Assembly: GCF_009363895.1 (NCBI RefSeq) | Contig: NZ_CP045434.1 | Span: 1,984,001 to 2,048,000 of the forward strand | DNA from: Sphingomonas ginsengisoli An et al. 2013 | GTDB lineage: Bacteria; Pseudomonadota; Alphaproteobacteria; Sphingomonadales; Sphingomonadaceae | Direction of reading: 5' to 3' | Length of the DNA stretch: 64,000 nucleotides | Shown here: positions 3,421 through 64,000 of the stretch, piece after piece | How positions within the stretch are numbered: position 1 is the stretch's first letter | How the letters are laid out: the number at the start of each line of letters is the position of its first letter | Program-made: the position numbers and the translations under genes | Notes under the pieces: model-generated | Told to the model about the DNA's origin: nothing | Databases searched by the model: none | The model's input: the letters and a program-made list of their open reading frames with translations, nothing else

Positions 3421-3507
3421 CGTCGTCCCGGCGAAGGCCGGTACCTCGGGACACGAACAGATAACGTCTGAAATTCGCTGAGCTCCCGGCCTTCGCCGGG
3501 ACGACGA
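3421..3507. repeat. REP-like palindrome pair, family A
   Basis: Two copies of a 27-base element in opposite orientation, 3421-3447 and 3481-3507, separated by about 33 bases. The core is CGTCGTCCCGGCGAAGGCCG, itself a palindrome (CCGGC / GCCGG). The same element occurs twice more at 58901-58930 and 59254-59284. It fills the space between two convergent genes (HhH protein and CNNM/CBS protein), where transcripts of each strand would fold into a strong hairpin. Confidence 0.85.
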
Positions 3508-55783: not shown

Positions 55784-56125
55784 ATGGCGCGCGTCACCGT
55801 CGAAGATTGCGTCGACAAGATCCCCAACCGGTTCGACCTGGTCCTGCTCGCCGCTCAGCGCGCGCGGCAGATCTCGGGCGGCGCCGATCTCACCATTGAC
55901 CGCGACCGTGACAAGAATCCGGTCGTCGCCCTGCGCGAGATCGCCGAGGAGACCGTTCGCCCGCGTCACCTTGAGGAAGCGGTGGTGCAGAGCCTGCAGC
56001 GCGTCCAGATGGACGAAGAGGACGCCACCGATGAGCTGGCGAGCCTGAGCGAATCGGCCGAGGCGCTGCGCCTCACCGCCGCCGCCCCGCCGCGCCCGAC
56101 GCCGAGCGGCAACGACTACGAATAA
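55784..56125 (+). CDS. rpoZ: RNA polymerase omega subunit
   Basis: The omega subunit (113 residues) helps assemble RNA polymerase and contributes to a ppGpp-binding site in some bacteria. Seen are [40 protein letters not shown] and [16 protein letters not shown], the canonical omega sequence, then an acidic helix-rich tail. It normally sits directly before rsh; here an opposite-strand HxlR gene lies between them. Confidence 0.96.
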
Positions 56126-56140
56126 GCCGTTCGGCGCCGC

Positions 56141-56659
56141 TCAGGCGGCGTCGACCGCATCGCCCGGCGGGACGATCCGTTCGGGCAGGCGATAGCCTTT
56201 CCCCTCGGGATCGAGCCACATCAGCTCGTCGAGCGCGAGTTCGCGCCCGTCATGGGCGAGGATGGCGATCTTGCGGATCGGCTGGCCGTCACGGATGTCG
56301 GCCGCCACCCGGTCGTTCGAGCCATGGCCCCAGTCGAGGCCCCACTGGCGCAGCGCCAGCACCACCGGCAGCAGCGCCTCGCCCTTGCGGGTCAGCGAAT
56401 AGATGACCTTGCGGCGGTCGTCCGGATCGGCGGCGCGGCGCAGGATGCCCCCGGCAACCATCTTGGCGAGCCGGTCGGACAGGATGTTGCGGGCGATCCC
56501 GAGGCAGCCCTGGAATTCCTCGAAATGCTGGAGGCCGTTCAATGCCCCGCGCACGATCAGGAACGCCCAGCGTTCACCGACCAGGTCGATCGAGCTGGGC
56601 AACGGACACCGCAACGCCGCCGCCTTGAAGGCTTCGATCTGCTTGTGATCCCGAGCCAA
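56141..56659 (-). CDS. HxlR-type winged-helix regulator, between rpoZ and rsh
   Basis: A 172-residue HxlR protein with LRCPLPSSIDLVGERWAFLI in the N-terminal helix (the Cys before the helix as in thiol-sensing members), RNILSDRLAKMVAGGILRRA for the recognition helix, and a C-terminal extension RKIAILAHDGRELALDELMW of unknown role. It is transcribed toward rpoZ, opposite to rpoZ and rsh, and thereby splits the usual rpoZ-rsh pair. Its targets are unknown. Confidence 0.88.
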   Translation of the reverse strand: MARDHKQIEAFKAAALRCPLPSSIDLVGERWAFLIVRGALNGLQHFEEFQGCLGIARNILSDRLAKMVAGGILRRAADPDDRRKVIYSLTRKGEALLPVVLALRQWGLDWGHGSNDRVAADIRDGQPIRKIAILAHDGRELALDELMWLDPEGKGYRLPERIVPPGDAVDAA

Positions 56660-56784
56660 ACTTCACCCCTTTTCCATTCGGCCTGCAAAATGAAGCACAT
56701 ATCGCGGGGTCTGAACAGAGTGTAAGGCAAGCCGACAGGTCCGCGGCGGTCGCCGCAGACCATTTCGCACTTGCAACGCGAGCG

Positions 56785-58899
56785 ATGCTCGCCCCACATG
56801 GGGCGGTGCTTCGTCAATATGAGCTGGTCGAGCGGGTCCGCGCCTACGACCCCGATGCCGATGAGGGCCTGATCAACCGCGCCTACGTCTTCTCGATGAA
56901 GGCACACGGCAGCCAGACCCGCGCCTCGGGCGACCCTTATTTCAGCCATCCGATCGAAGTCGCCGGCATCCTCACCGACCTCAAGCTCGACGACGAGACG
57001 ATCGCCACCGGCATCCTCCACGACACGATCGAGGATACGGTCGCGACCCCCGAGGAGATCGAGCGGCTGTTCGGCGGCAACGTCGCGCGGCTGGTCGACG
57101 GGGTCACCAAGCTCTCCAAGATCGAGGCGCAGTCGGAAAATGAGCGCGCCGCCGAAAACCTCCGCAAGTTCCTGCTCGCATTGAGCGACGACATCCGCGT
57201 GCTGCTGGTCAAGCTCGCCGACCGACTTCACAACATGCGGACGCTCTATCACATCAAGGCCGAGGACAAGCGCCGCCGCATCGCCCGCGAGACCATGGAT
57301 ATCTATGCCCCGCTCGCCGAGCGGATCGGCATGTACGAGATCATGAACGAGATGCAGACGCTGGCCTTCCGCGAGCTGGAGCCCGACGCCTACGCCTCGA
57401 TCACCCGGCGTCTGGCGCAGCTCCACGCCGAGGGCGGCGACGTGATCGGCCGGATCGGCCTGGGGTTGCAGCTTCACCTCGCCGACAACGGCCTCACCGC
57501 CGAGGTGACCGGGCGCGAGAAGCATCCCTACAGCATCTGGAAGAAGATGGCCGAGCGGCACATCAGCTTCGAACAACTGTCCGACGTGATGGCCTTCCGG
57601 GTGATCGTCGACAGCGTCGAGGACTGCTACCGCGCGCTCGGCCTCATCCACCGCCGCTGGCCGATGGTCCCGGGCCGGTTCAAGGACTTCATCTCGACCC
57701 CCAAGCGCAACGGCTATCGGTCGCTGCACAGCTCGGTCATCCACGACAGCAAGATGCGGATCGAGGTGCAGATCCGCACCCGCGAGATGCACCTCCAGGC
57801 CGAAAAGGGCCTCGCCGCCCACTGGGCCTATAAGGAAGGCCGCCCGTCGGCCGACATTCGCGTGCCGTGGATCGATGATCTGGTCGAAATCCTCGACCAT
57901 GCCGACAGCCCCGAGGAGCTGCTCGAGCATACCCGGATGGCGATGTACCAGGACCGCATCTTCGCCTTCACCCCCAAGGGCGAACTGATCCAGCTCCCAA
58001 AGGGCGCGACCCCGGTCGACTTTGCCTATGCCGTCCACACCCGGCTCGGCGACCAGAATGTCGGCGCCAAGGTCAACGGCCGGGTCGTCCCGCTCCGCAC
58101 ATTGCTCGAGAATGGCGACCAGGTCGAAATCCTGACCAGCGACGCCCAGCATCCCCAGCCGAGCTGGCTGCGCTTCGTCGCCACCGGCAAGGCGCGTTCG
58201 GCGGTCCGTCGCTTCGTCCGCCACAAGGAGCGCGACGAGACGGTCGAATTGGGTCGCAAGATCTACGACGAGATCGTCGCCCGCCTGCCCGTCCCGCTGC
58301 CCAAGGAGGCGCTGCCGCGCGCCCTCAAGAAGCTGAAGCAGGAAAGCGAGGACGCGCTGATGATCGCGATCGCGCGCAAGCGGGTCACCGACGAGGCGCT
58401 GATGGAAGCGTTGATGCCGGGCTCGACCGGGGGCGATGTCGCCGCGCCGCGCCGCTCGGCCCAGCGCAAGGCGATCTCGGTCAAGGGGCTGACCCCTGGC
58501 GTCGCCTTCCACCTCGCGCCCTGCTGTCACCCGATCCCGGGCGACCGCATCGTCGGCCTGCGCCGCGAGGACGAGGGGATCGAGGTCCATGCGATCGGCT
58601 GCGACAGCCTCGCGACCGGGGTCGACGCGGACTGGCTCGACCTCGCCTGGGGCGACGGTTCGGACGGCGCGACCGCGCGGCTGCGGGTGATCCTGCGCGA
58701 CCAGGCCGGCGCGCTCGGCGCGATGGCGGGCATCCTCGGCGCCAAGGACGCCAACATCATCAACCTCCAGCAGGTCCACCGCGACGGCAGCTTCCACACC
58801 TTCGACCTCGACGTCGAAGTGCACGACCTCGCCCACCTCCACACCATCCTCGCCGCGCTGCGCGGAAGCGACGCGGTGTCGAGCGCCGAGCGGCTCTAA
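56785..58899 (+). CDS. Bifunctional (p)ppGpp synthetase/hydrolase (RelA/SpoT homologue)
   Basis: RSH makes and removes the alarmone (p)ppGpp. The 704-residue chain shows the HD hydrolase domain (HPIEVAGILTDLKLDDETIA; GILHDTIEDTVATPEEIERL, about 50-90), the synthetase domain (DFISTPKRNGYRSLHSSVI and EVQIRTREMHLQAEKGLAAH, about 315-345), a TGS domain (FAFTPKGELIQLPKGATPVD, about 393-412), an RIS/ZFD-type segment with LAPCCHPIPGDRIVGL (about 575) and a C-terminal ACT domain. Both active sites look intact. The ATG at 56785 or GTG at 56806 (MLRQYELVERVRAYDP) is the start; the latter is typical of the family. Confidence 0.95.
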   Translation: MLAPHGAVLRQYELVERVRAYDPDADEGLINRAYVFSMKAHGSQTRASGDPYFSHPIEVAGILTDLKLDDETIATGILHDTIEDTVATPEEIERLFGGNVARLVDGVTKLSKIEAQSENERAAENLRKFLLALSDDIRVLLVKLADRLHNMRTLYHIKAEDKRRRIARETMDIYAPLAERIGMYEIMNEMQTLAFRELEPDAYASITRRLAQLHAEGGDVIGRIGLGLQLHLADNGLTAEVTGREKHPYSIWKKMAERHISFEQLSDVMAFRVIVDSVEDCYRALGLIHRRWPMVPGRFKDFISTPKRNGYRSLHSSVIHDSKMRIEVQIRTREMHLQAEKGLAAHWAYKEGRPSADIRVPWIDDLVEILDHADSPEELLEHTRMAMYQDRIFAFTPKGELIQLPKGATPVDFAYAVHTRLGDQNVGAKVNGRVVPLRTLLENGDQVEILTSDAQHPQPSWLRFVATGKARSAVRRFVRHKERDETVELGRKIYDEIVARLPVPLPKEALPRALKKLKQESEDALMIAIARKRVTDEALMEALMPGSTGGDVAAPRRSAQRKAISVKGLTPGVAFHLAPCCHPIPGDRIVGLRREDEGIEVHAIGCDSLATGVDADWLDLAWGDGSDGATARLRVILRDQAGALGAMAGILGAKDANIINLQQVHRDGSFHTFDLDVEVHDLAHLHTILAALRGSDAVSSAERL

Positions 58900-58900
58900 A

Positions 58901-58930
58901 CGTCGTCCCGGCGAAGGCCGGGACCTCAGG
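58901..58930. repeat. REP-like palindrome, family A, left of the GIY-YIG gene
   Basis: CGTCGTCCCGGCGAAGGCCG followed by GGACCTCAGG; inverted against the copy at 59254-59284 with one difference in 30 bases. It starts two bases after the rsh stop. Confidence 0.85.
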
Positions 58931-58934
58931 TCGG

Positions 58935-59213
58935 CTAGGAACCGGAAAGATCAATCCACTCTGGATTGGCCTCGTGGATCAGGCGGAGCTTCCACAGCCG
59001 CGGCCATTCCTTGATCCGTTTTTCCCGCTGGATCGCGTCCTCGATTCGCTCATGCTCTTCGGCATAGACGAGGGTGTGGCATTGATACTTGTGCGCAAAG
59101 CGCGACCCGCGACCAGCACGGTGTTGGAAAACACGCTCAACAAGGTCAGCGGTCACGCCGGTATAAAGAACGCCATGAGGCTTGTTGGTGAGAATGTAGA
59201 CCCAGCCTGGCAT
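58935..59213 (-). CDS. Small GIY-YIG nuclease-domain protein
   Basis: A 92-residue protein that is one GIY-YIG domain of the URI/YhbQ-like type. The two strands are VYILTN (5-10) and LYTGVT (16-21); Arg27 (LVERV), His/Arg31-32 and the acidic residue Glu64 in IQREKRIKEW (61-70) fit the catalytic positions. It would cut DNA once dimerised or guided; no partner domain is attached. ATG 59213 (MPGWVYILTNKPHG) is the canonical start. The whole gene sits between inverted copies of palindrome family A, four bases from one and 41 from the other. Confidence 0.9.
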   Translation of the reverse strand: MPGWVYILTNKPHGVLYTGVTADLVERVFQHRAGRGSRFAHKYQCHTLVYAEEHERIEDAIQREKRIKEWPRLWKLRLIHEANPEWIDLSGS

Positions 59214-59253
59214 CGGACCAGCGTAGCGCAGCGCTGATGTTCTGCCAGCTTTC

Positions 59254-59283
59254 CCTGAGGTCCCGGCCTGCGCCGGGACGACG

Positions 59284-59284
<1 letters not shown>
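59254..59284. repeat. REP-like palindrome, family A, right of the GIY-YIG gene
   Basis: Reverse complement reads CGTCGTCCCGGCGCAGGCCG then GGACCTCAGG, matching 58901-58930 at 29 of 30 positions. It ends at the maeB stop codon. Confidence 0.85.
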
Positions 59285-61554
<2,270 letters not shown>

Positions 61555-61594
61555 GGGGTGGCGGTTACACCCCTGTCCCACTAACGTCACCCCC

Positions 61595-64000
61595 ATGGCC
61601 CGGGCCGACGACCCCACCCCCATGATGCAGCAATACCACCGCCTCAAGGCCGAGGCCGGTGACGCGCTCCTGTTCTACCGGATGGGCGACTTCTTCGAAC
61701 TGTTCTTCGACGACGCCAAGGCCGCCGCGGCGACGCTCGACATCGCGCTGACCAAGCGCGGCGCCGACGCGGGTGAGCCGATCCCGATGTGCGGCGTCCC
61801 CGTCCATTCGGCCGAGGGCTATCTCGCGCGGCTAATCAAGGCCGGCCACCGCGTCGCCATCGCCGAGCAGACCGAGAGCCCCGCCGAAGCCCGCAAAGCG
61901 CGCGGTTCCAAGGCGCTGGTCGACCGCGCGATCGTGCGGCTGGTCACCCCCGGCACGCTGACCGAGGAAACACTGCTCGACAGTGGCGCCGCAAACTGGC
62001 TCGCCGCCATCGGCCGCGCGGGCGAGGATTATGCGCTTGCCGCCGCCGACATCTCGACCGGGCGGTTCGAACTGATCGCCTGCGGGCCGGGCGACCTCCT
62101 GGCCGAGCTGGCGCGGCTGTCGCCCGCCGAGACCATCGCCGACGCCTCGGTCCCCGGCATCCGCACCACACCGGGCAAGGGCGGCTTCGACAGCGGCGGC
62201 GGCGAACGCGCGCTCAAGGCGCGGTTCGGGGTCGCCAGCCTCGACGGCTTCGGCGAGCTGTCGCGCGCCGAACTGGCGGCGGCGGGCGGCCTCCTCGCCT
62301 ACCTCGACGCAACCCAGAAGGGCGCCACTGCTTTCCTCGCCGCACCGCGCCGGATCGCGCGGCTGCAGCATATGGCGATCGACGCCGCGACCCGGACCAG
62401 CCTCGAAATCTGCCGCACCGCCGATGGGCAGGTCGCCGGCTCGCTACTCGCCGAGGTCGATCGCTGCGTCACCGCCGCCGGACGCCGCCTGCTCGGATCG
62501 GACCTTTCCGCGCCGTTGCTCGACCGAACCGCGATCGAGGCGCGGCTGACCCTCGTCGGCTGGCTGAACGAAGATGCGCTGCGCCGCGGCCGGGTGCGCG
62601 AAGCGTTGCGTGCGCTCCCCGATCTCGGCCGCGCGCTTGGGCGGCTGGTGGCGAGCCGCGGCTCTCCCCGCGACCTCGCCTCGGTGCGCGACGCCCTCGT
62701 CGCCGCGGCCGCCATGGGCCAGGCGCTCACCGCCGAACCCGATCTCCCGCCGCTCCTCGCCAGCCTACTGCCCCGCCTTGCCGGTCACGAGCGGCTTACG
62801 CAGCGTCTCGCCGCGGCGCTTGTCGATTCGCCCCCGCTCGACGCGGCCAAGGGCGGCTTCATCGCCTCCGGATTCGACCCCGAACTCGACGCCCTGCGCG
62901 ACGCGAGCAGCAACGGCCGCCAGGCCATCGCCGCCCTCGAAGCGCGCTATCGCGACTCGACCGGCGTCGCCGCGCTCAAGATCCGCCACAACGCCGTGCT
63001 CGGCTATCATGTCGAGGTCGCCGCGCGGCACGCCGATCGACTGCTCGCCCCCGACAGCGGCTTCACCCACCGCCAGACCCTCGCCGGCGTGGTCCGCTTC
63101 AACTCTCCCGACCTCCATGCCGAGGCTAGCAAGGTCGTCGAGGCCGGTGCCCACGCGCTCGCCGTCGAGCAGGCGCATCTCGCCGCGCTGACCGCGCTCG
63201 CGGTCGCCGACGCGGCGCGGATCGCCGACACCGCCGAGGCGATCGCCCGGATCGACGTCGCCGCCGGCCTCGCCGAACGCGCCGCCGAGGGCGGCTGGTG
63301 CCGTCCGGCGGTGGTCGAGCAGCCCTGCCTCGAGATCGACGGCGGCCGCCACCCGGTGGTCGAAAGCGCGCTCGCCCGCGCCGGCGACCGGTTCATCGCC
63401 AACGACGTCGCGCTCGGGCCGCACGACCGATTGTGGCTGATCACCGGCCCCAACATGGGCGGCAAATCGACCTTCCTCCGCCAGGTCGCCCTGATCGCAT
63501 TGCTCGCGCAGGCCGGCAGCTTCGTCCCCGCATCGCGCGCCAAGGTCGGGCTGGTCGACCGCCTGTTCAGCCGGGTTGGCGCGAGCGACAATCTCGCCCG
63601 CGGTCGTTCGACTTTCATGGTCGAGATGGTCGAGACCGCCGCCATCCTTGCCCAGGCGACGAAGAACAGCCTGGTCATCCTCGACGAGATCGGGCGCGGC
63701 ACGTCGACCTACGACGGGCTGGCGATCGCCTGGGCGGTGGTCGAGGCGATGCACGACACGGTCGTCGCGCGGACCCTGTTCGCGACCCATTATCACGAGC
63801 TGACGCGCCTCGCCGACCGCCTCGACGCGCTGTCGCTCCACCACGTCCGCGCGCGCGAATGGAAGGGCGACCTCGTCCTCCTCCACGAGGTCGCCGGCGG
63901 CCCCGCCGACCGCAGCTACGGGATCGCGGTTGCGCGGCTCGCCGGGCTGCCGCCAGACGTCGTCACCCGCGCCAAGGCGGTGCTGGCAAAGCTCGAAGCC
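61595..64000 (+). CDS. mutS: DNA mismatch repair protein MutS, 3' end cut by the window
   Basis: MutS recognises mismatches and recruits MutL. 802 codons are visible of an expected ~870. The mismatch-contact motif is [20 protein letters not shown] (Phe-x-Glu, about residues 28-47). The ATPase domain has Walker [21 protein letters not shown] (about 617-636), Walker [21 protein letters not shown] and [11 protein letters not shown]. Start ATG 61595 gives [20 protein letters not shown], as in other alphaproteobacteria. The stop lies beyond the window. Confidence 0.97.

Follow-up and report, generated by a model that had tools for sequence, protein, structure and literature searches.

The GIY-YIG domain occurs in homing enzymes, and the roles of its active-site residues are known from the superfamily. 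Chenal, Veyrier and co-workers (Nat Commun, 2025) reportedly described the Ssn family, GIY-YIG nucleases that cut single strands site-specifically and have repeats as their targets, first in Neisseria. With regard to the repeats, REPs sit chiefly downstream of genes, and those with a GTAG tag are tied to Y1 transposases, as stated in the available part of PMC3733652. The same part of that paper (Di Nocera, 2013) describes the CGTC REPs as a superfamily apparently without a dedicated transposase, in which the tail is given as fitting CCA for most and the first stem pair as almost invariably A-T.

The window analyzed here, a stretch of 64,000 nucleotides from Sphingomonas ginsengisoli, contains a small GIY-YIG gene between two inverted palindromes, and the features concerned are the following:

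58900-58930, plus strand: left REP arm, with the CGTC head outward, an 8-bp stem and a 4-nt loop
58935-59213 (stop included), minus strand: GIY-YIG mini-nuclease gene of 92 amino acids (ORF with a PF01541 match)
59254-59284, minus strand: right REP arm, an inverted copy with the CGTC head outward
3421-3507, no strand assigned: REPIN-like short pair of the window's repeat, without nuclease (pattern match and fold)
56785-58899, plus strand: neighbor rsh, convergent (ORF seen; name taken from the initial annotation)
59284-61647, minus strand: neighbor maeB, convergent (longest ORF, start uncertain; name taken from the initial annotation)

The gap between the rsh stop codon (58897-58899) and the maeB stop codon (59284-59286) is entirely occupied by the unit, the final base of which (59284) also belongs to the maeB stop codon. 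The ORF runs on the minus strand from an ATG at 59213 to a stop codon at 58935-58937, and PF01541 is its only domain (53.9 bits in the domain search). The initial annotation, made from the sequence of the window, had placed a 92-residue GIY-YIG gene between inverted copies of a palindrome in the rsh/maeB gap, with arms identical at 29 of 30 bases and a nuclease-less pair at 3421-3507, and all of this was reproduced: the two inverted arms are 31 nt each and 97% complementary, and the distant pair is real and folds as a single long hairpin (z -8.5). Each arm of the window unit, folded on its own as DNA, forms a hairpin of 8 stem base pairs and 4 loop nucleotides (-10.5 kcal/mol; z -2.95 and -3.36), with an unpaired ACGTC head in front of it. 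No known RNA family reached the gathering cut-off in 56000-62000, and a consensus scan of 58850-59350 gave neither a promoter nor a T-tract terminator. A phage origin was rejected: 4 phage records matched, each with less than 60% identity.

When the repeat pattern of the window was searched in the whole genome with up to 3 mismatches, 45 matches were obtained in comparison to 4 with the reversed pattern. Apart from one unpaired copy and a few weak matches scattered elsewhere, these are arranged as 12 short head-outward pairs (73-92 bp) and the pair that bears the nuclease. Of the 12 short pairs, at least 8 consist of one G-form and one A-form arm; the spacers show no conservation. The short pairs are REPIN-like, and those without a nuclease have the look of a non-autonomous form. 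CGTC REPs are characterized by an unpaired CGTC head, a stem of 8-9 bp and a loop of 4-5 nt, for which the window arms show ACGTC, 8 bp and 4 nt, and by mostly head-to-head pairing, for which the genome shows 13 head-outward pairs versus one unpaired copy. In comparison to the available part of PMC3733652, the window repeat thus agrees with CGTC REPs in head, stem, loop, head-outward pairs and alphaproteobacterial host group, while it differs from them in its CTCAGG tail, the tails listed there mostly fitting CCA, and in the G-C first pair of the gene-side arms (in the short pairs, at least 8 of 12 contain one A-T arm). It differs further in that a GIY-YIG gene lies between the arms, whereas that part of the paper reports no associated enzyme. 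The arrangement also resembles RAYT/REPIN, as presented in the available parts of PMC2817692, PMC3116915 and PMC3733652, in having a small nuclease gene between inverted REPs together with dispersed short pairs, and is unlike it in fold (GIY-YIG versus HUH/Y1) and in tag (CGTC versus GTAG). An identity with RAYTs or GTAG REPs was rejected, since PF01541 is the sole domain, with no HUH/Y1, and the tag is CGTC. The palindrome had been linked to REPs in the initial annotation, which its CGTC head, 8-bp stem and 4-nt loop bear out; its tag is CGTC and not the Y1-linked GTAG.

Six residues of the nuclease, Y6, Y17, R27, H31, E64 and K68, were invariant or nearly so in 40 sequences, and the same six are kept at matching positions in the bracketed set described below. 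The earlier reservation that the catalytic residues might be unable to cut did not apply, as judged from the conservation of these residues. The AlphaFold2 model of the nuclease had a mean pLDDT of 96, and the best PDB match was the UPF0213 protein BH0048 (PDB 1zg2), with a sequence E of 2.7e-4, a structure E of 8.6e-4 and a TM of 0.61; this was the sole structural match with E below 0.001, and the next was Slx1. The window nuclease is thus predicted to have the same fold as UPF0213. Like the Ssn nucleases as reportedly described, it is small, with a single GIY-YIG domain and conserved catalytic residues, and its cognate repeat is present in many genomic copies, with 12 short pairs besides the unit. 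Ssn enzymes are said to cut single strands only, at specific sites, and the window nuclease is likened to them from its sequence and its repeats. A homologue from Neisseria gonorrhoeae, with 48% identity over 92% of the query, is itself bracketed by CGTCATTCCCGCG-type repeats.

To quantify bracketing, the two 250-nt flanks of the domain were compared and the highest-scoring inverted repeat without gaps was taken, with a threshold of 14; the control windows were not genes but shifted positions within the same loci. Five GIY-YIG matches are present in the host genome, of which four are small genes, each bracketed by a different inverted palindrome (scores 29, 27, 28 and 19). The fifth, of uvrC size, had no bracket in the stretch inspected, which lies partly within the gene; uvrC is a weak control because its domain is inside a long gene, the ends of which were not scored. 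In the main set, 110 of 163 small GIY-YIG genes were bracketed in comparison to 7 of 1304 control windows, the other 53 genes being below the threshold, and the window locus, with a score of 28, exceeded the maximum of those controls (26). A second set, made up of two named contigs and 29 loci from a search across the phylum, had brackets in 22 of 31 cases in comparison to 2 of 248 controls. The main set was non-random, comprising up to 30 best-scoring loci per search, picks from score-sorted tables, the longest of them truncated, and 12 plasmid-collection records, and because the samples were score-ranked the bracketed fractions are not prevalences. It was given as 172 loci, of which nine had no family match (eight uvrC-size genes and L137), and one of 164 genes was excluded because it lay at the edge of a contig. 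Eight of the 12 plasmid-collection records reached a score of 14 (N. gonorrhoeae, two Sinorhizobium, Novosphingobium, Aeromonas, Sphingobium, one Rhizobium and Shinella), and the homologues of Planktothrix, Spirosoma, Photobacterium and another Rhizobium were below it. By a simple text rule, the tags of the 110 bracketed genes point outward in 73 cases and inward in 9, with 28 unclassified. The enrichment check proposed in the initial annotation therefore gave a clear answer, with repeats strongly enriched beside small GIY-YIG genes, and a coincidence of one repeat pair was rejected, as the enrichment is general in the samples. Two loci of one genus (g67; L258 and L261) have far longer bracketing repeats, with 66-73 nt matched between the sides and an insert between the stem halves. 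Another locus (L159) carries a tandem of small GIY-YIG genes, at G049:C5:159053-159274 and 159631-159852, which have the same family score and are about 580 bp apart, possibly a duplicated unit.

Bracketing tracks a GIY-YIG subfamily. When the Trp of the K.W.R motif is present, 106 of 122 proteins are bracketed, while sampled proteins without it, which may be UPF0213/YhbQ, are seldom bracketed (4 of 41), a difference from the window nuclease. The type of repeat also follows the type of nuclease. For 107 of the 110 bracketed genes (arms longer than 60 nt were excluded), protein distance and repeat similarity were correlated with a rho of -0.395, and of -0.391 for pairs of different genera; in both cases none of 300 permutations was as strong. 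The repeat types, like the tag orientations, were assigned by simple text rules, under which the GVT clade has perfect-stem CGTC repeats in 63 of 69 cases and the GHTD/GQTD clade has GTCGA-type repeats in 35 of 36. Because physical linkage alone could yield such a correlation without recognition, we also counted unlinked repeat copies, with the flanking pair subtracted, in 41 genomes, the nuclease type of each genome being assigned from the main bracketing set. Nuclease-bearing genomes held 12 and 34 copies for type A, 4, 9, 10 and 20 for type B, 3, 5, 6, 9 and 15 for type C, and 0, 2, 4, 21, 39 and 40 for type D, in comparison to a median of 0 for each type in genomes without the matching nuclease. 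The one-sided p values for the four types were 4e-4, 8e-5, 6e-5 and 5e-4; within genus they were 0.003 for A, 0.0009 for B and 0.001 for C, with no within-genus association for type D (p 0.28). Possession of a given nuclease type thus tends to go with a larger number of unlinked copies of the cognate repeat, but there are exceptions: one genome (G020) holds 11, 7 and 4 copies of the A, B and C repeats and another (G033) holds 30 of D, neither with a small GIY-YIG gene, and orphan repeats therefore persist. The window nuclease is of type A, the other type A nuclease being at L025 of genome G017, and a listed relative of the window protein is from Sphingomonas kaistensis. The partnership of nuclease and palindrome suggested in the initial annotation is very likely, given the type-specific pairing and the copy-number association.

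A parallel case was found in the yqeY-dnaG gap, where, of 23 same-genus loci, 5 contain the type C GIY-YIG unit and 3 a DUF559 gene that is flanked by inverted palindromes belonging to another family; in two further loci (L276 and L282) the gap is occupied by an unrelated ORF, about 140-156 codons long, that seems to encode a membrane protein. Across 93 loci of the order (the yqeY-dnaG loci L270, L271 and L279, and L299-L388), DUF559 genes (PF04480, Vsr-like) were bracketed by inverted CCCTCCC..GGGAGGG-type palindromes in 75 cases in comparison to 6 of 744 controls at a score of 14, and in 68 cases in comparison to 0 of 744 at a score of 16. When the three yqeY-dnaG loci that gave the idea are left out, a score of 14 is attained by 72 of 90 loci and one of 16 by 65 of 90. 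These repeats also covary with the protein (rho -0.296; -0.303 for different genera; 0 of 300 permutations as strong) in 74 of the 75 bracketed genes. The nearest repeat was within the own family for all 107 GIY-YIG genes and for 73 of 74 DUF559 genes, which gives two distinct repeat families. The window's own genome had no DUF559 match. Work on a Caulobacter protein that carries a DUF559 domain treats it as a Vsr-like PD-(D/E)XK endonuclease, and the available part of that paper has no word beginning with palindrom (PMC12907096).

The rsh-maeB junction could be read in 23 same-genus relatives, and the nuclease was present there in none of them, so that with regard to empty and filled sites, as raised initially, the gene is not conserved at this place. 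The two stop codons overlap by 4 nt in 12 of the 23, two relatives (L041 and L048) have in the gap a short CGTC-type pair of another repeat type than that of the window, and eight further junctions show short overlaps, small gaps or unrelated sequence. In L038 the gap is 115 bp with an apparent CTCCCC-type pair that by eye resembles the DUF559-side palindromes. Among the genomes compared, the unit at rsh-maeB is thus in the window's genome only, and three relatives carry other short repeat pairs there. On Sphingobium plasmids, seven records span a whole filled site, and among eight aligned plasmids the unit is present in four, one of them with a frameshifted gene; two others have a single, chimeric hairpin of this type on its own, and the last two have no such hairpin. 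The lone hairpin (L231 and L232, plasmids pTomTYG74a and pTomTYG64a, in the fnrL-response regulator gap) is single and symmetrical, resembles the outer halves of two REPs, and is possibly a deletion scar or an ancestral form. The nuclease copy of plasmid pTomTYG73a (L236) at the same site is frameshifted and unannotated. No target-site duplication was seen at the unfilled rsh-maeB and Sphingobium sites, where the divergence of the relatives prevents the ends of the unit from being fixed. Elsewhere, synteny is seen for type C in 5 of 6 genomes, and each of the six type B pairs has at least one flanking ORF match in common, while for type A three pairs have none and for type D a match is present in 1 of 15 pairs. 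The picture is one of long residence, because of the synteny of types C and B, with occasional relocation and loss, and not of frequent transposition. Of the small transposable unit that had been proposed initially, the non-autonomous-looking pairs were borne out; movement by the nuclease found no such support, as no target-site duplication was identified and several nuclease loci are syntenic.

An active transposon, with the nuclease as transposase of a REP-ended element, the short pairs as MITE-like derivatives and a recent insertion at rsh-maeB, would account for a gene that is restricted to the window's genome at a junction where stop codons often overlap, for the unrelated neighborhoods of types A and D in different genomes, and for the filled and unfilled states on the Sphingobium plasmids. 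The long residence of types C and B and the lack of a visible target duplication argue against it, we know of no lone GIY-YIG domain that serves as a transposase, and we regard this explanation as unlikely. The short repeat pairs at rsh-maeB in L041, L048 and L038, and the lone same-type hairpin in two Sphingobium plasmids where four aligned ones carry the gene, are what homing might leave, in which the nuclease would cut gene-less short REP pairs and repair would copy the gene in, as GIY-YIG homing endonucleases do at intron sites. The rsh-maeB pairs of the relatives differ in repeat type from the window's unit, however, the lone hairpin is equally well a deletion product, and the support includes no demonstrated flow of sequence between sites, so homing appears quite improbable. 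The location between two convergent genes would also suit ordinary intergenic REPs, acting as terminators or insulators, that had settled beside an unrelated small gene, as REPs lie chiefly downstream of genes according to the available part of PMC3733652. This is very unlikely in view of the type-specific pairing across genera, the copy-number association, the rarity of brackets beside GIY-YIG proteins without the motif Trp, and the finding of no T-tract terminator at the window locus.

The unit in the window probably pairs a minimal, Ssn-like GIY-YIG endonuclease with the CGTC-tagged REP hairpin that is cognate to it. The enzyme would recognize the REP when it is single-stranded and folded, be it on the lagging strand, in repair or in incoming DNA, and may nick the folded REP site-specifically, by analogy with what is said of Ssn. 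Cutting, followed by repair or recombination, could keep or spread the REPs, and now and then the nuclease-bearing pair too, and the short pairs would be non-autonomous, REPIN-like copies.

In a wider and more tentative reading, which we consider possible yet somewhat short of probable, the palindrome-bracketed mini-nuclease would be a general replicator design that has been realized with at least three unrelated folds, namely HUH (RAYT) with GTAG REPs, GIY-YIG with CGTC REPs, and the DUF559/Vsr-like PD-(D/E)XK fold with CCCTCCC..GGGAGGG-type repeats; each palindrome superfamily would be kept by its cognate enzyme, and the units would compete for intergenic sites such as yqeY-dnaG. Among the literature matches listed, neither an association of GIY-YIG with palindromes or REPs nor a bracketing of DUF559 by palindromes was reported, and of the two the DUF559 bracketing may be the greater novelty. 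Alphaproteobacteria commonly carry CGTC REPs, which according to the 2013 account seem to have no dedicated transposase (PMC3733652, available part), and the type-specific GIY-YIG linkage gives these families a testable partner. The likely target of an uncharacterized GIY-YIG mini-nuclease could be read from its flanks, and the DUF559 parallel would carry the link between repeat and nuclease to another nuclease fold.
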